The notes under the pieces: model-generated
The model's database searches: none
The model's input: the letters and a program-made list of their open reading frames with translations, nothing else
What the model was told of the DNA's origin: nothing
Position numbers and translations under genes: made by a program
Assembly (NCBI RefSeq): GCF_014643735.1
Contig: NZ_BMKA01000009.1
Coordinates: 1-64,000 of the forward strand
Source of the DNA: Neptunicoccus cionae
GTDB lineage: Bacteria > Pseudomonadota > Alphaproteobacteria > Rhodobacterales > Rhodobacteraceae
Direction: 5' to 3'
DNA: 64,000 nucleotides
Shown here: piece after piece, positions 28,251 through 38,600 of the stretch
Layout of the letters: each line of letters starts with the position of its first letter
Position numbering within the stretch: position 1 is the stretch's first letter

Positions 28251-29258
28251 TCATTGGCCGTGCTTGAGCAACCGCTTCAATCTTAAGCCGGCAAACATGA
28301 TGTGAGGGGGCATCGCCAACGAATAGTGACCGCAGTTGAGTTCCAGAATATCTGGGCTGCCCCCAGTCTCCTTCAATGTCTGAATGAATCTCTGCGATAG
28401 CTCTGGCATTACCACTTTGTCACGCTTTGCCAGCACAAGCTGAAGATCGAGATCAGATCGTCCCAACCTATGAGCGTGATTTTCCAAGTTGAGGGGTCCC
28501 CACGCCCTTCTGAGATCGGTAAGATCAATCTCTGACTCTAGGCTGTCGCGTATTAGCCGTGTCGCGCGACCAGTCCAGACCATATCTGCCAAACTTCCGG
28601 CCGTCAGGAAAAGCGAGGCTTTCGTTACAGCCGGGTCATGCGCCGCGACCAACCCAGCAACCCACGAACCTAGACTCATCCCGAGAACTGAAATCTCCTT
28701 GTATCCTTGGCATTTCAGCCAACGAATGAGTTTCCGGCCATCCAAAACGGCCTGCCTGACAGATTGGATCGTTCGACCGATATTCGAGCTAAGCATATAA
28801 TCAGCATGCGTCGAGTCGGGACGGCTGCGTTGGAAATGATAGGGCAGCGCAATCTCGACGACAGTGATGCCGCGCTTCGAGAAGAAGTTCGCAATCTGAC
28901 GTTGCTGCTTGCTTGCATTCCAATGGTGAAAAACGACTAGCGCCTTATCCAATGAACCGCTTTCCGTCACCTTCGACCAGACCATATTGTTCTCTTCGGT
29001 GTCGGTTGAGACGTCCGATGGAAACTTGATCCAGTCATTTTTCAAACTGAACTCAAAAGCTGAATCGATTGGTTCATCAAAGAAGGCTGGATCCTCGACG
29101 GCCTGGTCTGCAAGGTTACAAAGCTCCGCGATGCTACCTACCTGCTTTTTGCCTGGAAACGCGAGTTCCGCATCAAGGACGAAATCGGCCACTTTCTTTA
29201 GTTCGTTGCCTCGCTGTACGCGCCGTTCATCCCACCGATCCAGCCAATTATGATACAC
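28251..29258 (-). CDS. rcgR: Alpha/beta hydrolase, RcgR-like conjugation factor
   Basis: A 335-residue alpha/beta hydrolase. VLGMSLGSWV holds the nucleophile elbow GxSxG (S195); ALVVFHHWNAS is the oxyanion-hole region (HHW); LAKRDKVV gives the acid position and ELNCGHYSLA the catalytic histidine near 313. It has no signal peptide. The gene overlaps the preceding membrane-protein gene by 11 bases. The pair resembles RcgR/RcgA, described as needed for transfer of rhizobial plasmids, where RcgR is a putative lactone hydrolase-like protein; that naming is from memory of the family and should be treated as moderately certain. Confidence 0.65.
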   Translation of the reverse strand: MYHNWLDRWDERRVQRGNELKKVADFVLDAELAFPGKKQVGSIAELCNLADQAVEDPAFFDEPIDSAFEFSLKNDWIKFPSDVSTDTEENNMVWSKVTESGSLDKALVVFHHWNASKQQRQIANFFSKRGITVVEIALPYHFQRSRPDSTHADYMLSSNIGRTIQSVRQAVLDGRKLIRWLKCQGYKEISVLGMSLGSWVAGLVAAHDPAVTKASLFLTAGSLADMVWTGRATRLIRDSLESEIDLTDLRRAWGPLNLENHAHRLGRSDLDLQLVLAKRDKVVMPELSQRFIQTLKETGGSPDILELNCGHYSLAMPPHIMFAGLRLKRLLKHGQ

Positions 29259-30855
29259 TTTGACTGTCTCTCTGCTCTACCGCGTTCCATGTTTCGAACC
29301 CCGGATCAAACAGGCCGTAAATCGCGATTAGCACCGCTACGCTCAGTAAAATGGAGAAGCCCGCGAACACACCGATCAGCAAATAGCTGGCCACTAGTAT
29401 AGCTACGGTCGTTACCATCATGCCCATGAGGACATGAAACTGACCGCTCGCGCCCAATCGGGAAGCGCCATACAGAAAGACAAAAACTGTCGCCAAAACG
29501 ATAAGAAGGCTACTGAAATGGTTCGGTGCACTGTAGTCGGTCAAGCTGTGGATTTCATCGCCTGTATTGAAGATCGAAGTCATGTCTCCAACCAGCCAAC
29601 GTACGATGTTTGTCCCGCTGGATGCCAAGTAGGTGCTTTGCAGCTTCATGCAGATCGCAATGAAGATCCCCAGAACCGTACATCGAAAAATCCCACGCAT
29701 CACCCGAGCACCAACTGTATTGGCTTCGTGTTGATGCTCAGCTTTTTGCTTATCGTCTGACCCCGCCAGAATTTTCTCAAAATCCTGGACCACCGTATAT
29801 AGCAATATGAGGCCCGCGAAGAACACATAGAAGCAGACGCACATGTAAAAATATGCGAAGCCTGTGAACACGATCTCTTCCGGAACGGATATAACTTCTG
29901 GCTGCACAAGCGCCAACGAGCCCCAATCAGGGGCAATGCTACCAGCTCCTTGCACCAACGGAAGCAAGCGAACCCCGATCCATTGAAAGACACCCGCAAA
30001 CAGAAAACATATCAAAAAGACCGCCCAAAACGTACAAGAAGACGCTTCTACGTTGCGCGCCCAAGTGTCGGAACTATCCATCCGGTCGGGGTGAGCCACA
30101 AGATGCAAGCGCCCTTCATATTTCCAAAAGACCAGTAGTTCTGCGACAATCGCAAAGAACAGCGGCATGAACACCATAAACAGAAATGTCCAATTGGGTG
30201 CCCAAATAAATCCTACCTCCTTAATGTGGCCATCCAGTGAGTCAAAAGTTGCTTGATGGATGCCGAGAAAATAGGATGAGAACCCAAGTGCGACGGCACC
30301 GGCAAATACCGACGACGGTAAGTTCAAGGGAGACCCGCCAAACAAGGATTCCGATGTTCTCGCCAGACTAAAACGCTGATTCCGGCGGTTGGCGTCGTCT
30401 CGGGCCCTATCAGATTGTGGGACTGACGTACCGTCGGCGTGAACGGGCTGCGCCAAATCTGGCACCTCCGGCGCATTGCTTTCCTTTGCGTTTCGCTTCT
30501 CGCGCCTTTTGGCCAACAAGCTTGATCGCGCCGCGCTAAGCTCCGCCTGCCATTCGCTCGTTGCCTCTGGGTCGTTGCAGCCGAAAATCCGGGCCAGCCA
30601 TCGAATATTTTCAGAGCTAATACCCTTCTCGTTGTCTTGAAACCACAGTTGCACCGTTCGCAGCTCGACCCCAGCACCGCTAGGATCAATCTGCGTGATG
30701 GCTGCTGCAAGAAGATCAGGTGTCCATGGACCTTCAGGAAACCCGTCACAATCCACAGGTCGACCCGCACCTGCCGAGGCTAGGTGCTTAAACAGTTCCT
30801 TAAAGTCCCTATCGTTTCTCTCCGGGCGCAGAAAATATTTACCGTTCTTTGTCAA
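29248..30855 (-). CDS. rcgA: Multi-pass membrane protein with N-terminal HTH-like domain, RcgA-like
   Basis: A 535-residue protein. Residues about 35-90 (GRPVDCDGFPEGPWTPDLL, then VELRTVQLWFQDNEKGIS, ENIRWLARIFGC) look like a helix-turn-helix or related regulatory domain; a charged linker (LLAKRREKRNAKE) follows; from about 180 there are roughly eight to ten membrane segments. This combination matches the RcgA family, reported with RcgR as essential for conjugation of certain rhizobial plasmids. It lies near the virB operon. The biochemical activity is unknown; transporter or membrane sensor are both possible. Confidence 0.65.
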   Translation of the reverse strand: MTKNGKYFLRPERNDRDFKELFKHLASAGAGRPVDCDGFPEGPWTPDLLAAAITQIDPSGAGVELRTVQLWFQDNEKGISSENIRWLARIFGCNDPEATSEWQAELSAARSSLLAKRREKRNAKESNAPEVPDLAQPVHADGTSVPQSDRARDDANRRNQRFSLARTSESLFGGSPLNLPSSVFAGAVALGFSSYFLGIHQATFDSLDGHIKEVGFIWAPNWTFLFMVFMPLFFAIVAELLVFWKYEGRLHLVAHPDRMDSSDTWARNVEASSCTFWAVFLICFLFAGVFQWIGVRLLPLVQGAGSIAPDWGSLALVQPEVISVPEEIVFTGFAYFYMCVCFYVFFAGLILLYTVVQDFEKILAGSDDKQKAEHQHEANTVGARVMRGIFRCTVLGIFIAICMKLQSTYLASSGTNIVRWLVGDMTSIFNTGDEIHSLTDYSAPNHFSSLLIVLATVFVFLYGASRLGASGQFHVLMGMMVTTVAILVASYLLIGVFAGFSILLSVAVLIAIYGLFDPGFETWNAVEQRDSQSVS

Positions 30856-31580: not shown

Positions 31581-32273
31581 TTAAGGCCGCCAAGTCCACG
31601 AAGACCGATAAAGCTTTCGTCCGTTCCAGTCGGCGCTTGTCCACATATTGCGCTTAGGATCACCACCAAACTTCGACTTCTCGTTAAGCTTCTTGTAAAC
31701 GGCTGGAGTAATCCTCGTTGCGACGTCGCTAGAAAGAGAGTTCATACGCGCAGCGTGGTTTGCCGCACTTCCGACCCATACGAGATCGTTGTTGTTACGT
31801 ATTCCACTTCTAACGACAAGCATATCAGATGTATCAATGCCGACAGTATGGCGCAGAGAGAAGTTTGTTGAAGTATATTGATTTTTTAGTGCTGGGTTAA
31901 TTACCTTCTTGACCAAATAGTTGATCTGCATCCCCGTTTTAGCGGCATCAGAGTTCTTGCTGTCACCGATAAAGACACCCATCACCCGATCACCATCGAA
32001 GGATCGAACTTCACCACCGTTTAGGCGGATAGTCCTCGTCGCACACAGCAAGAATGCTTTGTACAGTTCAGCGGCAAATTTTACGTCGTACTGATCGACA
32101 ATCTCCGTTGAGCCGTCCATGTCTGCGTAAAGTACGGTCGCAGAGATAGAGCGGCCAACATTCGACAGCCCAATGTCTTGCGACTTTGGAACAACTTGAC
32201 CTTTGGTCTCAGTCCAAGCCGTCGTAAAGATTGCTCGGACGTTCTCGTGCATCTTGTCCTCAAATTCACTCAC
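31581..32273 (-). CDS. pycC: Class III nucleotide cyclase, PycC-like (Pycsar)
   Basis: A 230-residue single-domain class III cyclase. LYADMDGST gives metal aspartate D51, SFDGDRVMGVF the second (D95), and SAANHAARMNSL the transition-state pair N172 and R176, so an active homodimer is expected. There is no membrane or sensor domain, which is unlike housekeeping adenylate cyclases but typical of the stand-alone cyclases of the Pycsar anti-phage systems, which make cCMP or cUMP. It overlaps by 8 bases with a gene for a cyclic-nucleotide-binding membrane protein, the usual Pycsar effector. The base sequence is visibly more AT-rich than the transfer genes, consistent with recent acquisition. Which nucleotide it cyclises cannot be read from the sequence. 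Confidence 0.8.
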   Translation of the reverse strand: MSEFEDKMHENVRAIFTTAWTETKGQVVPKSQDIGLSNVGRSISATVLYADMDGSTEIVDQYDVKFAAELYKAFLLCATRTIRLNGGEVRSFDGDRVMGVFIGDSKNSDAAKTGMQINYLVKKVINPALKNQYTSTNFSLRHTVGIDTSDMLVVRSGIRNNNDLVWVGSAANHAARMNSLSSDVATRITPAVYKKLNEKSKFGGDPKRNMWTSADWNGRKLYRSSWTWRP

Positions 32274-33177
32274 GTCTGTTTGAGCTCCTTCGCAAATCTC
32301 GATCTGCTAACCAAGACATCAAAGCCAGCCCTGCGAGAGAAAGATAAATTATGGCGACTCCCCACCATTTTTGCTCTGGATTCGAACTAAAATTCCAAAG
32401 AAACGGAAGTGGCTGCCGTGTCCCGTTAACCGAGAATGAAAGGCTAAAAAGGGTCTGGACTGCCTGAGCAATCATGGCAGTTCCCGAAAGCCAAAACATG
32501 TTTCGATAAATAAAATCTGGGTTCATTCTTATTGCAACGAGAGTGCCGGACGCGCCAGCCCCAATGGCAAACAGGATAGCCACCCAAACCGGAGACCCAC
32601 CAAGTCCGAACCAAACTCCGCATAGGACTCCGACTACCGCTCCGAACACAACCGACGCCCATGTCCATGTGGTTCTGGATGAGCTCTTTCCGTCACCTAG
32701 TAACCTAATGTTTTTTCGGTTCATGGAATCGACCATGTCAGACAATCGCTCACGAAACTCAGCGTTCTTCGACATTAGATCTCTGAAATCATGAGCGGAG
32801 ATGACTCGGGCCTCCACATTCGGTGTACTCACAATAACATCCGCAGATCGAGCCGATCCTGGCTTCATCGCTGCCATTTCCCCAACGGTTTCGGTTGCTT
32901 CTTTGGAGTCGATAAAATTTGAGTTGATGTATACCCCAACTGAACCGAACAATAAGAAATACACGTCGTCAGCGTCATCGCCCTGTTTCAGCAAGACGTG
33001 ACCTTTCGGGAACCGAACCAATTTAGACCGGCTAACTATATCTTTGGCCAGTTCTTCATTGTTAGCAACAAGCTTGCTCCGGCAGATGATTTTGTGGTGT
33101 TTTTCCAACACGGATTCCAAGAGATGATCATTCTCCTCGGGTGGCGCTAGCTCTTCTATTTTCTTCTTTCTAAGCAA
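32266..33177 (-). CDS. pycTM: Cyclic-nucleotide-binding membrane effector, PycTM-like
   Basis: A 303-residue protein. Residues about 40-150 are a CRP-type cNMP-binding domain (FPKGHVLLKQGDDADDVYFL and the phosphate cassette region VGEMAAMKPGSARSADVIV, 98-116). After a linker (KSSSRTT) come four hydrophobic segments (about 173-193, 196-217, 228-250, 272-291). This is the architecture of PycTM, which on binding cCMP or cUMP damages the inner membrane and stops phage replication by killing or arresting the cell. It overlaps the WYL regulator gene by 22 bases and the cyclase by 8, so all three are one transcript. Confidence 0.8.
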   Translation of the reverse strand: MLRKKKIEELAPPEENDHLLESVLEKHHKIICRSKLVANNEELAKDIVSRSKLVRFPKGHVLLKQGDDADDVYFLLFGSVGVYINSNFIDSKEATETVGEMAAMKPGSARSADVIVSTPNVEARVISAHDFRDLMSKNAEFRERLSDMVDSMNRKNIRLLGDGKSSSRTTWTWASVVFGAVVGVLCGVWFGLGGSPVWVAILFAIGAGASGTLVAIRMNPDFIYRNMFWLSGTAMIAQAVQTLFSLSFSVNGTRQPLPFLWNFSSNPEQKWWGVAIIYLSLAGLALMSWLADRDLRRSSNRRE

Positions 33178-34031
33178 GTCTCTATCTCTTCCAAGTTTGA
33201 AATTTTTAGTCGGTAGCTACTCTTATTGCGCATCGCTTCGCCCTCGATCTCCAGAGGATCAAAGCCGTAGAACCTAAGATAGTAGAAGATCATTGCCTTG
33301 CGGACTGGGAGCTCCAGACAACCATCGATCATACTATATTCGATTTCGACCTGTTCTTTCTGTCTTGCCGTAAGTCCCGGTTCCGCTTGAAGTTTCATCT
33401 TAATTAATTGATGCCATTGCGTGTCTGGTCGAAGATCTGGGCATTGGTTACTCGACACGTTGGCAACCTCAATTCTTGAAAGCACAAAATCTGAGTATCT
33501 GTCTTTCTCAAGATCGAATGCACGCATGTGCCACCTGTGACCGTCGCTTGCCAATGCGTGTGGACAAAGCGTGCGCGCGCCTTCTGTGTCTGAACTCAAA
33601 GACACGTATTTGACCGTCAAACATGTTTTTGCATCGATGGCCTCTAATACGGCCCGAAGAACTTTGGAATCCATCTTACGGGACGCAACGGCAACAGCAT
33701 CAAATTCAGGAACTGACGCTGGCCAAATTTCGTTCGCCGTGCGGTAACCGTGATGATGCATTTCAAGTTGATGAAGGTACTCCGCAGCTTCGCCGCCGCT
33801 GAAGACAGGTTTGAAGTTCGACCGAGAAACGTATGTCCGGCGGCGTGTGTCATAAGCCATGTTCTTGGGTGCCAAGTCCAAGTAGGAAGTCAAATCAAGT
33901 GTAGCCTGCTGCGGCGATATCTCGAACTGCTCAGTCAGCAGCTTCCGTCCAACTGCTCCCTCCCACATAAGCTGAAATTCAATGAACTGGTAGCGCCTAC
34001 GCAGGCTCGGCTTGATGCCTTCATGTTTCAT
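33156..34031 (-). CDS. WYL-domain transcriptional regulator (CapW-like)
   Basis: A 291-residue regulator. Residues 1-70 form a winged helix-turn-helix (RRYQFIEFQLMWEG, LLTEQFEISPQQATLDL); residues about 135-195 are the WYL domain, with RWHMRAFD (166-173, WHM in place of WYL) and VLSRI; a WCX-like C-terminal domain follows (MIFYYLRFYGFDPLEIEG). WYL proteins of this length control defence operons such as CBASS (CapW) and BREX (BrxR), repressing them until infection or damage. GGGAG lies seven bases before the ATG. It heads the PycTM-PycC operon and faces the divergent tandem-cyclase gene; the palindrome between them is the likely operator. Confidence 0.82.
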   Translation of the reverse strand: MKHEGIKPSLRRRYQFIEFQLMWEGAVGRKLLTEQFEISPQQATLDLTSYLDLAPKNMAYDTRRRTYVSRSNFKPVFSGGEAAEYLHQLEMHHHGYRTANEIWPASVPEFDAVAVASRKMDSKVLRAVLEAIDAKTCLTVKYVSLSSDTEGARTLCPHALASDGHRWHMRAFDLEKDRYSDFVLSRIEVANVSSNQCPDLRPDTQWHQLIKMKLQAEPGLTARQKEQVEIEYSMIDGCLELPVRKAMIFYYLRFYGFDPLEIEGEAMRNKSSYRLKISNLEEIETCLERRK

Positions 34032-34053
34032 GTCTGGTCTCCCTACGATACTT

Positions 34054-34078
34054 TAGCATATTGACATTTAATATGGTA
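34054..34078. promoter_or_regulatory. Palindrome overlapping a promoter between the divergent cyclase operons
   Basis: TAGCATATT-GACATTT-AATATGGTA is a 25-bp palindrome with one mismatch per arm (perfect core arms CATATT at 34057-34062 and AATATG at 34070-34075). TTGACA at 34061-34066 falls inside it and could be the -35 box of a plus-strand promoter (AT-rich -10 near 34084-34091). It lies 23 bases upstream of the WYL start codon, so a bound repressor could silence both directions. Confidence 0.55.
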
Positions 34079-34154
34079 GTCCCAATATATAGAATGTAGT
34101 TATAAAATAGGCTGGCTCGTGCTGGTCTATCGCATTCAACAGAAGGAATGAAAA

Positions 34155-35753
34155 ATGTCGTGGAGCGAACCCGAGGCGCGAACCCGAATTGAGAAGCTTG
34201 TTAGGGAAGTACCTGATGTGGGTGTCCGGCGTTTTGAGAAATACCTTCCGCTCTACGAGGCTGACAAGGCCCTTATGACGGCGCGAGATCAGCAAATCTC
34301 TCCGCCGCTATTTAGTCTTCCGCGAGGCAAAGCGGTCGTCGTAGACACTGTTCAGGTCTACATCGCGATTAGTAACTATGATGAGTACCGGCTGGAAGAA
34401 GGCCGTGAAACGGAAGCATCGCATGATCGTGCGCTACGTCTGCTTCATCTCTACTATAGCGCTGCAGATCGGGTGATCGAAAAGTCGCCTGCGCAGCGTG
34501 TCGACTTTCACAATGGTCGGGTCCACGCGGTTGTGCTTGAACTAGAGGAGGGTGGCATAAGTCGCGACACGCTGGCGCAAGCAATGGCCTTCATTGAAGA
34601 TTTCAAGCAGGTCGCCCACGCCGCCAACCAGCAGTTAGCAAACGGAGAGTTCAATGCGGTTTTCCGGATCGGAGTTGATGTTGGCACCTGTGTTGCAATC
34701 AACAATGGAACTGGCTCTGAACAAGAACCCATGTTCTTGGGGCGACCAGCCAACCACGCGGCCAAGCTTGCTCACGGGGACGAACCTGGCGTTTATGTAA
34801 GCGATGCAGTGCGCAAAATCTTGGGGCAGCCTGAACTCGGAGTTCTTGAGCAATTCAGAGGCCTTACCGATGTCGAGATCGCTACTAATTCTGCGAGACT
34901 GTCAGATGGTGAAAGCCTAGAGTTCGGGGTGCAGAACCGTCAGCAGTTCACGGACGAAGTCGTCGGGAACTGGCGCAAGGAAATCGCGAGTGGTGATTTT
35001 CCAGACTTTACCGATCCACGGTTCGTTTTCTCCTATCAAGAACCTCCGCTGAGCGAGATCGACTATGCTGAACTAATGCCCAGTAAGTCGATCAGAATGC
35101 CCTTAGTTTCGATGTATGCTGACCTGTCTGGTTACACGGACTATATTGATAGAGCTGTTGCAACCGGAGGGATTGGTGAAGCGGTTCGCGCACTCTACGT
35201 CATGCGGCAAGAGTTTCAGAACGTAGTTGAGGAAGATTTTGGTGGCCGGAAGGTTCGCTTCATCGGTGATTGTATTCATGCGCTGATAGCTGAAGGATCC
35301 GAGAATGAGACGAGCTCACGCGATACCGTCGCCTCAGCTACTCATTGTGCAGGTGGGCTTCACTCTTCGTTCGCTCTTTGCCAATCGATCCTCGGAGGTT
35401 TGGACAGTCTTGGCTTAGCGGTCGGCCTTGAACTTGGCCCAACTCCGATTTCACGGATTGGCATTCGCGGGGACCGCTCGGTTCGCGTGGCCTCCAGCAT
35501 CGCCACAGCGCGCTCTGAGAAAATGCAGAAGGACTGCGAACACAACGGTGTGAAGCTTGGTGAAAATGCACTTGCTGCGGCACCGGTCGCTCTTGCCGAT
35601 ATCCTGACTGAAGGCTTTGCGGCAGAACTTGATTATGGAGATGTAGCTGTGTGTTTGGCTGCGCCCGCTCCTTCATTGGCAAGCCCTACTTACGCCCGCG
35701 CGCACGTCCCGTCGCCAACACCGGAACCACGCGCACATTTGAAGACTGAATGA
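34155..35753 (+). CDS. Tandem two-domain class III nucleotide cyclase with split active-site residues
   Basis: A 532-residue soluble protein with two class III cyclase domains. Domain 1 (about 58-225): VVVDTVQVYIAIS keeps the first metal aspartate (D64), but the second metal position reads FHNGRVHAVV with no aspartate; RPANHAAKL keeps the transition-state asparagine (N200) with lysine (K204) for arginine. Domain 2 (about 315-500): SMYADLSGYT and FIGDCIHALI keep both metal aspartates (D323, D372), but the asparagine is missing (RSVRVASSIA). Thus domain 2 supplies metals and domain 1 the transition-state residues, giving one composite site, as in mammalian adenylyl cyclases. A proline-rich tail follows. 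AAGGA lies eight bases before the ATG. Its stop overlaps the start of an E2-like protein, pointing to a nucleotide-signalled defence role rather than housekeeping cAMP synthesis. Confidence 0.8.
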   Translation: MSWSEPEARTRIEKLVREVPDVGVRRFEKYLPLYEADKALMTARDQQISPPLFSLPRGKAVVVDTVQVYIAISNYDEYRLEEGRETEASHDRALRLLHLYYSAADRVIEKSPAQRVDFHNGRVHAVVLELEEGGISRDTLAQAMAFIEDFKQVAHAANQQLANGEFNAVFRIGVDVGTCVAINNGTGSEQEPMFLGRPANHAAKLAHGDEPGVYVSDAVRKILGQPELGVLEQFRGLTDVEIATNSARLSDGESLEFGVQNRQQFTDEVVGNWRKEIASGDFPDFTDPRFVFSYQEPPLSEIDYAELMPSKSIRMPLVSMYADLSGYTDYIDRAVATGGIGEAVRALYVMRQEFQNVVEEDFGGRKVRFIGDCIHALIAEGSENETSSRDTVASATHCAGGLHSSFALCQSILGGLDSLGLAVGLELGPTPISRIGIRGDRSVRVASSIATARSEKMQKDCEHNGVKLGENALAAAPVALADILTEGFAAELDYGDVAVCLAAPAPSLASPTYARAHVPSPTPEPRAHLKTE

Positions 35754-36559
35754 ACTCACTAGCCCTCCTCATCCGATCGAGCCCAAATTGGGTCGAAGTT
35801 CAGGAACAGAGCTTCGATGCTGCTGGCATAGTGGCGACACCACCTTTGCAGGGGGGCAAGCAGCCTAAGACTTTCTTTCTGAGACTGCGTCCCTCTTCTA
35901 GGGGAGGGGTGGCCGTGTATGAGCAAGCGTCTTCAAGGCAATGTCCCGGCTTTTGCCCTGAGAGACACATCAACCCAGACAGTAGCTTCTGCGTCTTCTA
36001 TGGTTCGGAAGAGCGAATATCGGATACCGGACGTGCTGAGACTTGGTGGTCGCACCTCGCCCAGTTTCTTGAATGCCAAGTATTTGCGGAAAAAAGAGGC
36101 GTGTGGCCGCTGCGCTCGGGATTAAGTCATGGAGATGCTGCAGATCACCAAATCGCCATGGAAAACATTGCCGATAATCATGGCTGGGGGGATGAAATTC
36201 TTGAAGGGATATTTCGTCGTCGTGGGTGGCTAGCCGATAGGCTGCCTCCTGCGTCCAAAGACAAGAAAATGGTTCTTAATTCGCGCACGCCGTGTCCTCG
36301 CGGTTGTCGCTGGAAGCATAAGTTGCTGCGGAAGCGATCATGCCAGATAGAAGCGTGTTTTGTCGGATGCGGAAGGCAGCACAAACCAATTCTCCGTGCG
36401 GATTGCCCTAATCGACGTAGCGTCGAAGACATCGTTCTTCATGAGCATAAACGCCGAAAGATCGAGCAAGACGCGATAAAGCACTTTTTTCAGAAGGGAC
36501 ATCGGTGTTGTGGTACGATGCAGCACTGTCCGCTCCGTGATTTGGAAGAGGCTGCCTAG
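35750..36559 (+). CDS. E2-like ubiquitin-conjugating fold fused to a cysteine-rich domain
   Basis: A 269-residue protein coupled to the tandem cyclase by a 4-base ATGA overlap. Residues 1-110 look like a bacterial E2-like domain: beta strands, then CPERHINPDSSFCVFYG in which H73, N75 and C81 match the E2 pattern HxN....C with the catalytic cysteine, then a helix WWSHLAQFLE. Residues 180-262 are a cysteine/histidine-rich domain with nine cysteines (C182, C186, C198, C203, C207, C219, C253, C254, C260), likely zinc-binding. Bacterial E2-like proteins occur in CBASS type II and other ubiquitin-like conjugation systems, but always with partners such as E1 (ThiF) or JAB; none is encoded here. Proteins described as E2-associated cysteine-rich are known from databases, function unknown. 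Confidence 0.65.
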   Translation: MNSLALLIRSSPNWVEVQEQSFDAAGIVATPPLQGGKQPKTFFLRLRPSSRGGVAVYEQASSRQCPGFCPERHINPDSSFCVFYGSEERISDTGRAETWWSHLAQFLECQVFAEKRGVWPLRSGLSHGDAADHQIAMENIADNHGWGDEILEGIFRRRGWLADRLPPASKDKKMVLNSRTPCPRGCRWKHKLLRKRSCQIEACFVGCGRQHKPILRADCPNRRSVEDIVLHEHKRRKIEQDAIKHFFQKGHRCCGTMQHCPLRDLEEAA

Positions 36560-36815
36560 GTATTCATCGAGCTTCACTGAAGCAGGTTACCCTTTGGTTG
36601 AAGAACCTTAATAACTATGTGCTAATACCACTGGATTTTCAGGGCCATTATATACAATGTTCGCGATATATGTTCCTTATTTGTTCTGTAAACGCCATTC
36701 AGAAATGTCACTGGCCGTGCAAAGCAGAAGTGTCATCAAAGGCGCTAACGGTAGCAAGGCTTAGCAGCCCGAAGACCTCATATATCGCAGGGTTGGTAAG
36801 CCTTGCGGGGTCTGG

Positions 36816-37087
36816 TTATAGACCAAGCTTGCGACGCTCTTTCTTGTTGTAGAAGGCTTTGATGCCTTCTTCGCGCATGAGCTCTTCGAAGGCGCGCCAG
36901 GCGAGGACATCGCCGAAGAAGGGCGGGCTGTCGGAAATCGTCAACGTTCCAAACTGGTTCTCTACGGACAGGATCCAGCCGGGATGGATGCTGGTCTTAT
37001 AAATCTCGACGTCGAATGATGCCCGTCGATGGTCACGATCTGTGTGTAATCGGAGAATATTATATCTGGGTCGTCTTTGGTATCCAT
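36816..37087 (-). pseudogene. Frameshifted passenger gene inside the IS
   Basis: From ATG 37087 the frame reads MDTKDDPDIIFSDYTQIVTIDG and then runs out of homologous-looking sequence; a different frame picks up at about 37020 with FDVEIYKTSIHPGWILSVEN and continues to LGL and TAA at 36816. Together they would make one protein of about 90 residues, broken by a one-base deletion or two-base insertion. It lies 17 bases after the transposase stop and inside the IS ends. The function is unknown. Confidence 0.6.
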
Positions 37088-37103
37088 GCCACCAATCTTG
37101 GGG

Positions 37104-38450
37104 CTATTCCGCCACGTGTACAATCTTCTTCTTGGCCCGTGATCCTGACGGCCGCCCAGGCGTTTTACCGTTTGGCTTGTAGCCCATCTTCTCAGAATTT
37201 GTCCTGACCGGGTATTTTGGTGGGGCCTTATCTTGCATCTCTTTGATGTACTCCAGCACGGCACCAAGGCACTTGTTGTCGGTGATGGCGGCGTGCGTCA
37301 CGCGTTGATCCATGTCGAAGATTTTGTAGGGCAGGGATCGGCCTTTTGAGCGCACCTCAAACCGCCCATCAACAAATGCATAAGTGTCCACGTATTTACC
37401 GACCAGACCGCGTGTCACATCGCTTTCTTCCAGCATGATCCGCTTGCGGTCATAGGAGAAGGTCAGTTGTTTGCCGACATAGCGTGTATCGCGCCAGCAT
37501 AGCACATCATCGAGCCGATCTGGCTCGACATTTAAGGCGCGGTGCAGGTTATCGGACTTGGCAGGAGCCTTTGCAAACTGCGCGTTGTGACGCTCCTTAA
37601 AGCCTTGCAGATAGGCGTTTCCGGCTTCCATATCCGAAATACTGGCAAGCCTCAGTTCCTTCACCAACCGGTCCTGTAGAGTCCGGTTGGCACGCTCAAC
37701 GCGACCCTTGGCCTGACTTGAATTGGCGCACAGAATCTCAACGTTCAGCTGGTTCAGCGCACGCCCAAACTGGGTCATACGCGCACCACCTTTGGCGTCT
37801 TCCTTGGCCACGCGAAACACCGTGTGCTTGTCGCTGTAGAATGCGACGGGACGACCGTGATTGAGCAGATAGCTCTCCAGTGCTTCGAAATAACTGAACG
37901 TGCTCTCGGATTTGACAAACAACAACTCCATCAAGGTGCTGGTGGCATCGTCGATAAAGACGAGCAGGGTGCAGGGACCAGAACGATCCTCAAACCAACG
38001 ATGATCCGAGCCATCGATCTGGATCAGCTCGCCGAAACATTCCCGGCGTAGACGCGGCTGGTGGAACTGGCGGCGCTGCTTGCGAGACAGCCAAATGCCA
38101 TCTTCAACCATCCACTTCCGAAGCGTCTCGCGAGAGACTTTGAAGCCATGATGTTCGGCCAGCATCTCAGCCGCCAGTGTAGGCCCAAAATCCGGGTACT
38201 GTTCCTTGATCAGACTCAACGCATAGTCGCGTTTGGCTTTATGGATCTGATTGTTTGGAATTTTGCCACGCGATTTGTGCCGGATCGCCGCTGCGCCATC
38301 CTGACGGTATCGCTTGAGCAGCCGGAAAACCTGACGACGTGTCAGGTCCAGCATGTTCGCCGCGTTGTCGACGCTCAGCCGGCCATCATCGACCTGTGCC
38401 AAAACTTCCACACGGTTCAACTCGCGCTCGCTCATAACCACCCATCCCAT
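37104..38450 (-). CDS. ISNCY-family (IS1202-like) DDE transposase
   Basis: A 448-residue transposase: N-terminal helix-turn-helix (RLSVDNAANMLDLTRRQVFRLLKRYR), then an integrase-type catalytic core with ELIQIDGSDHRWFED (first D), VAFYSDKHTVF (second D) and SSQAKGRVERANRTLQDRLV (E), the DDE triad. The length and motifs match full-length relatives, so it is probably functional. The start may be 38450 or the internal ATG at 38435. Confidence 0.9.
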   Translation of the reverse strand: MGWVVMSERELNRVEVLAQVDDGRLSVDNAANMLDLTRRQVFRLLKRYRQDGAAAIRHKSRGKIPNNQIHKAKRDYALSLIKEQYPDFGPTLAAEMLAEHHGFKVSRETLRKWMVEDGIWLSRKQRRQFHQPRLRRECFGELIQIDGSDHRWFEDRSGPCTLLVFIDDATSTLMELLFVKSESTFSYFEALESYLLNHGRPVAFYSDKHTVFRVAKEDAKGGARMTQFGRALNQLNVEILCANSSQAKGRVERANRTLQDRLVKELRLASISDMEAGNAYLQGFKERHNAQFAKAPAKSDNLHRALNVEPDRLDDVLCWRDTRYVGKQLTFSYDRKRIMLEESDVTRGLVGKYVDTYAFVDGRFEVRSKGRSLPYKIFDMDQRVTHAAITDNKCLGAVLEYIKEMQDKAPPKYPVRTNSEKMGYKPNGKTPGRPSGSRAKKKIVHVAE

Positions 38451-38600
38451 GTCCGCGCATCCTCACATCGTTTTGCGAGGAGAGTGACACTTCTGCTTTG
38501 CTCATGGGTGACATTATCGCTTTGCGGGTACATGTTCTTTTCGCATAATCTATCTTATGTTAAATATTGACAGTTTTGGACATCTTTTTTGAATGGTTTT

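Follow-up and report, generated by a model that had tools for sequence, protein, structure and literature searches.

In this study we analysed a 64,000-nucleotide stretch of Neptunicoccus cionae DNA (contig NZ_BMKA01000009.1, positions 1 to 64,000; the window from here on) and concentrated on five genes at positions 31,581 to 36,559. The results indicate that these genes probably form a Pycsar (pyrimidine cyclase system for antiphage resistance) locus in which a tandem, clade A PycC cyclase is controlled by a dedicated E2-like protein, a Pycsar counterpart of the short, E2-only form of type II CBASS (cyclic oligonucleotide-based antiphage signalling system). On one strand the locus carries a single-domain clade B PycC, an effector that joins a cyclic-nucleotide-binding (CNB) domain to a membrane domain, and a WYL regulator; facing them are the clade A cyclase and, directly behind it, the E2 gene (Table 1).

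Relatives were collected in a scan of genome contigs with a clade A alignment as the sole starting point, from which the best 80 of 177 relatives were kept, and the loci found on plasmids were added. After exclusion of L091, L092 and L105 as duplicates (L numbers denote the loci compared), the final set held 103 clade A copies. The partner of each copy was defined as the directly downstream gene, so that L064 and the second copy in L084 were counted with E2 despite nearby E1-E2 matches; genes of the relatives were labelled with custom profiles built on these same loci, and the counts include related sequences. By this rule the partner was E2-only in 88 of the 103 copies, an E1-E2 in 13 and unreadable in two, one lying at a contig end (L041) and the other at a record start (L112) whose other half has E1-E2 and JAB. 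All 101 readable copies have either an E2 or an E1-E2. Residues C81, H73 and C69 of the window protein, with Cys81 as the presumed catalytic one, are kept in 88/88 E2-only partners.

The pairing also held in the reciprocal direction. Among 398 genomes of the phylum, the E2 was found in three, the same three carry clade A, and in each the two genes adjoin; one of these genomes appears to be the source of L011. Across 72,556 plasmids, clade A was present in 28 records and the window E2 in 22, every one among those 28. Five of the six clade A records lacking a window-type E2 have an E1-E2 or a split E2, and NZ_CP074400 was not inspected. In the class, the E2-ntca domain gave a single match over the cut-off in 385 genomes, and there too a clade A cyclase adjoins, with a tail resembling that of L020. 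The best reading of these results is that clade A PycC has E2 as its constant partner and that E2 is not a second effector.

Other placements of the gene were tried and rejected. As a general Pycsar gene, the window E2 should accompany clade B as well; 36 plasmid records carry clade B and lack clade A, and tblastn found the window E2 in none of them. Nor did the E2 families behave as CBASS genes: all 22 plasmid records of the window E2 also have clade A, as do 12 of the 13 records of the family found in L113, the 13th being a 38-residue fragment. Phage-borne copies were likewise rejected, with no clade A match in the 50,697 phage records searched. As a separate observation, the Pseudomonas aeruginosa plasmid p382 (L010:6473-7291), annotated as pycTIR-pycC, has an E2-like open reading frame (ORF) directly behind pycC; it carries no listed annotation, and the gene table of the plasmid is incomplete by its own description.

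The 13 copies in which an E1-E2 replaces E2 directly behind clade A point to what the partner may do. Five relatives (the first copy in L084, L086, L107, L108 and a split S. baderi locus) have both E1-E2 and JAB behind the cyclase. The E1-E2 of L086 has relatives on 206 plasmids, and among the 40 records listed 30 have a nucleotidyltransferase or cGAS-like annotation under the match, which is the CBASS arrangement. In CBASS, one paper reports that operons with Cap2 and Cap3 conserve a C-terminal Gly or Ala in the cyclase (PMC10097602), and another describes a B. cereus CBASS cyclase conjugated through its last peptide, KPGGFA (PMC11153139). Among our clade A cyclases the last residue is Ala in 11 of the 13 with E1-E2 and in none of the 88 with E2-only (Fisher 5e-13, a value inflated by kinship); after dereplication at 70% the counts are 6/8 and 0/50, respectively. 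The likeness extends beyond the last residue. The L084 Pycsar cyclase ends in SFPDRPTGPTKPGGFA and the Sporosarcina CBASS cyclase of L129, a cGAS/DncV-like nucleotidyltransferase (CD-NTase), in SFPDRPVKPNKPGGFA; the two tails agree at 14 of their last 18 positions, both end in KPGGFA, and 0 of 200,000 shuffles reached that level. Against the three CBASS tails compared, those of L086, L107 and L111 match at 7-10 of 18 positions. The substitution of E1-E2 at the same gene place, together with these CBASS-type tails, argues for E2 as a modifier of the cyclase.

The window itself has the E2-only form. Its clade A cyclase ends in PRAHLKTE, and with Glu as last residue it has no CBASS-type C-terminal Gly/Ala. 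The E2-only cyclases nevertheless have a tail signature of their own: 73 of 88 have the motif R[APS][HYF] among their final 16 residues (500 shuffles gave 2.2 on average and 7 at most), and after 70% dereplication 40 of 50 do, against 1.2 in shuffles and 0-2 of 50 in 17 internal windows, suggesting that this tail is under selection. Among five CD-NTase loci beside near relatives of the E1-E2, three cyclases end in GFA and two have GGAE or GGK after GF, so residues trailing the GF core do not exclude conjugation. Both forms of the locus also meet in a single Bradyrhizobium locus (L084:1644-9485), where one clade A cyclase has E1-E2, JAB and the KPGGFA tail and the other has E2-only and an ARSH-type tail.

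Regarding the cyclases, the tandem enzyme matches PDB 6yii (PaPycC, 4.6e-69), placing it in clade A, and the Pfam Guanylate_cyc match covers the first of its two domains only. The catalytic residues are divided between these domains. The second keeps the metal Asp residues D323 and D372 in 101/101 copies, with Ser, Gly or Ala where the transition-state Asn is expected; the first keeps N200 in 101/101 and K204 in 99/101, and its second metal position is Q, G, S, P or A, never Asp, in all 101. By analogy with mammalian membrane adenylyl cyclases, this split conservation predicts one composite active site in clade A. The clade B cyclase matches PDB 7r65 (BcPycC, 1.8e-52). It has both metal Asp residues and the equivalents of BcPycC Y50, D94 and R97, which are kept in all 42 clade B copies located close to clade A; PMC11224242 names these three residues for the choice of UTP and reports PycC clades A to D as makers of cyclic UMP (cUMP). 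On this basis both cyclases most likely make cUMP and feed the single CNB effector.

The CNB domain of that effector matches the CNB of PycTIR (PDB 8jsk, 3.8e-12). An earlier note on this DNA had described a Pycsar-type locus with a four-helix, cNMP-binding membrane protein; the Pycsar assignment (Table 1) and the membrane effector were borne out, but a simple hydropathy count gave three membrane segments, not four. Among relatives the membrane domain differs, and the clade A tree implies at least 20 changes of effector type, with CNB-TIR, CNB-membrane, PycTM and CNB-cyclase all occurring. This last type joins CNB to an entire class III cyclase with FSD, K-x-x-GD and VN/IN...R motifs. Upstream of clade A PycC it is present in 15 loci (L008, L030, L033, L035, L037, L040, L047, L050, L054, L064, L066, L069, L070, L076 and L084), 14 of which have no other CNB effector within 5.5 kb, and it may be a cyclase that serves as a nucleotide-gated effector or relay. 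In Sulfitobacter sp. OXR-159 the CNB effector (L004:4110-5038) is broken across two reading frames, and the cyclases and E2 there are open.

The regulator also has clear relatives. It matches CapW (9c5g) at 9.2e-49 over residues 11-260, Sm CapW at 1.3e-43 and BrxR at 2e-32, in agreement with the earlier note, which had placed a WYL regulator between two divergent operons. Published work describes CapW as a CBASS repressor that binds palindromes overlapping the -10 element (PMC9122588), says that it is released by single-stranded DNA (PMC13373217) and reports BrxR homologues near Pycsar (PMC9122601). The divergent intergenic region of the window holds TTGACA at 34061-34066 within an imperfect palindrome at 34054-34078. 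In the alignment, which took in 25 of the 28 WYL-bearing loci, TTGACA recurs in 21/25 regions and a loose block with the palindrome in 16/25; the strict form TCCTA-N5-TAGGA is present in 6/25, the window not among them. A clear common promoter was rejected, as a promoter scan found one site against 0.4 expected, and the block is a candidate operator or promoter only.

Taking gene content, conserved sites and the tails together, we propose the following working for the locus. A CapW-type repressor would keep it quiet from the 123-base region. After derepression, E2 would license the clade A cyclase via its C-terminal tail, and the licensed enzyme would make a cyclic pyrimidine nucleotide, most probably cUMP. 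Within the window copy the second, clade B cUMP cyclase would feed the same cNMP-binding membrane effector, which might then open and damage the membrane, so that the infection is aborted.

For the clade A group with Cap2-like partners, a working like that of type II CBASS is on balance likely. We also lean, to the same degree, towards a wider reading, 'type II Pycsar', in which ubiquitin-like conjugation would switch clade A cyclases by way of a portable tag made up of about 18 C-terminal residues. CD-NTases and the unrelated class III cyclases would both carry this tag, and machinery of the Cap2/Cap3 kind would read it, the E2-only locus of the window being the short version. Covalent chemistry in that E2-only form is less probable than this. 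Several results weigh against the proposed E2 control. A profile search of the window E2 against the PDB gave no match; the L107 JAB matches the Cap3 family at 7e-9, below the curated cut-off, and the L107 E1-E2 matches Cap2 structures weakly (1.8e-7), in its E1 part. Two of the 13 E1-E2-partnered cyclases end in Ser, and the tail of the JAB-bearing L108 agrees with the CBASS tails compared at just 3-4 of 18 positions. Moreover, the partner switched independently no more than three times on the tree, so the link between tail and partner is not significant once kinship is allowed for (p 0.25). The E2-only cyclases have no fixed C-terminal residue, usually with 2-9 residues after the motif, and no E1 or JAB was found in the neighbourhood of the window's pair; covalent transfer in this form would thus need trimming and an E1 from elsewhere. 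In the E2-only form, E2 may conjugate the clade A cyclase or only bind it. Binding alone would make E2 a non-covalent chaperone or scaffold, seated on the conserved R-A/P-H/Y tail and holding clade A until infection, with conjugation confined to the E1-E2 variants. The lack of an E1 at the locus, residues past the motif that vary in number and kind, and the absence of a C-terminal Ala in 88/88 E2-only copies would suit such a role. We regard it as possible but a good deal less probable than the working proposed above, since Cys81 and H73 are kept in every E2-only partner, E1-E2 occupies the same gene place in relatives, and two of the five CBASS CD-NTases also have extra residues after the GF core.

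Two further explanations concern the halves of the locus. They could be independent defence units placed back to back, clade B PycC with the effector on one side and clade A/E2 with a target of its own on the other. Such independence, which we consider unlikely, would fit a clade B cyclase whose presence switched at least 18 times over the clade A tree and that occurs without clade A in 36 of its 44 plasmid records. On the other side, clade B lies near clade A in 42/101 copies, in several arrangements (score cut of 150; 44/101 without a cut), and a CNB effector accompanies each of the 28 clade A copies that have WYL. In 16/91 copies WYL, CNB effector, clade A and E2 are present and clade B is absent, so the CNB effector stays with clade A, which should suffice to drive it. 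Clade A loci can do without the clade B cyclase, which is best read as a second input or amplifier. The earlier note had also taken the two halves to belong together, and the comparison of loci upheld this: other Rhodobacterales-type loci repeat the order WYL, CNB effector, (clade B PycC) and, divergently, clade A PycC, E2, with all five genes in 9/101 clade A copies, window included, and on this recurrence the reading as mere neighbours was rejected. The same note had gone on to propose a second, different nucleotide signal acting through E2 as an effector arm, and here it was not supported. Two cyclases of different clades beside a single CNB effector would allow for two signals, but we give this very little weight: PMC11224242 reports the same product for clades A-D, E2 follows clade A whichever of the four effector types is present, and the exchange of E2 for E1-E2 speaks for a protein that modifies the cyclase.

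Compared with known systems, the window resembles clade A Pycsar with PycTIR (PaPycC, 6YII) in its tandem cyclase and CNB effector and differs from it in having a membrane instead of a TIR effector, an extra clade B cyclase and a CapW-type regulator. Pycsar is described elsewhere, in the covered parts of the literature, as cyclase plus receptor without E2, whereas the window has one. Its clade B cyclase is like that of BcPycC Pycsar (7R65) in its single domain and its UTP-choice residues, but has a clade A/E2 pair next to it, with one effector for both. With type II and type II short CBASS (Cap2/Cap3 or E2 only) the window has in common an E2 or E1-E2 right behind the cyclase and a CapW regulator, and Pycsar relatives add JAB in five cases, with a CBASS-type tail on four of those five; in contrast, the window cyclases are class III nucleotidyl cyclases, not CD-NTases, and the clade A one lacks the C-terminal Gly/Ala. 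The WYL protein is like CapW/BrxR in family and in its divergence from a cyclase operon, and unlike them it also heads the effector operon, with an operator that is only a candidate. The window has a PycC-clade class III cyclase and, in the same locus, an effector of the cyclic-nucleotide-gated type (CNB plus membrane segments); it has no CD-NTase, and we therefore class it as Pycsar and not as CBASS.

All parts belong to known families with PADLOC models, and the locus files as a Pycsar variant with E2. PADLOC models match the E2 and E1-E2 proteins over nearly their full length, so such proteins have been collected before. In the literature covered, with Tal 2021 (the founding Pycsar paper), the Hobbs/Kranzusch review and Burroughs/Aravind 2020 lying outside that coverage, we found nothing tying Pycsar to E2, Cap2 or Cap3, so earlier notice of the link is possible. 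Ubiquitin-like conjugation of a signalling cyclase has been shown for cGAS-like enzymes. If the reading proposed here is true, conjugation would be a general switch of nucleotide-based immunity, with machinery that reads the tail rather than the fold, suggesting that two different alarm systems, Pycsar and CBASS, share one switching machinery. It also makes E2 a concrete gene to examine in those Pycsar systems for which a cyclase and a receptor have been described until now.

The layout was confirmed in an ORF check of the 64-kb window, which found the five genes, their overlaps, the divergence and the 123-base gap as the earlier note had given them. The clade B cyclase and effector genes overlap by 8 bases, the effector and WYL genes by 22, and the clade A and E2 genes by 4.

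Table 1 Features of the Pycsar-type locus in the window, with family matches.
Feature	Positions	Strand	Length and matches
Single-domain class III cyclase, clade B PycC type, predicted uridylate cyclase	31581..32273	-	230 aa; PADLOC PycC 4e-95, Pfam Guanylate_cyc 9e-5
Effector: N-terminal CNB domain and C-terminal membrane domain	32266..33177	-	303 aa; cNMP_binding PF00027 5.5e-13
WYL transcription factor, CapW/BrxR family	33156..34031	-	291 aa; WYL PF13280 7.7e-12
Divergent intergenic region, candidate operator/promoter	34032..34154		123 bases
Tandem (clade A) PycC	34155..35753	+	532 aa; PADLOC PycC 1.4e-172, Pfam Guanylate_cyc 6.3e-6
E2-like protein (E2-ntca and Cys-rich E2-Crich)	35750..36559	+	269 aa; PF20298 8e-18, PF20272 1.1e-12

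Finally, we looked at the surroundings of the locus. Type IV secretion and mobilisation genes lie before 28 kb in the window (translations read by eye, with no family search), and from this reading the window reads as plasmid DNA. DNA of an ISNCY-family transposase lies at about 36687-38570, starting about 130 bases past the E2 stop codon. In three relatives a vitamin B12-dependent ribonucleotide reductase gene stands directly upstream of the locus (L036:3976-7767, L050:2808-6644 and L089:3891-7661), and L035, L064, L078 and L080 have ORFs of like size and place; this neighbourhood may be an integration hot spot. On the other side of the window locus, at 28251-30855, an alpha/beta-hydrolase-like gene overlaps that of a 535-residue membrane protein without a Pfam family. 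This pair, possibly another defence pair, recurs on an Aminobacter plasmid with 73% DNA identity.

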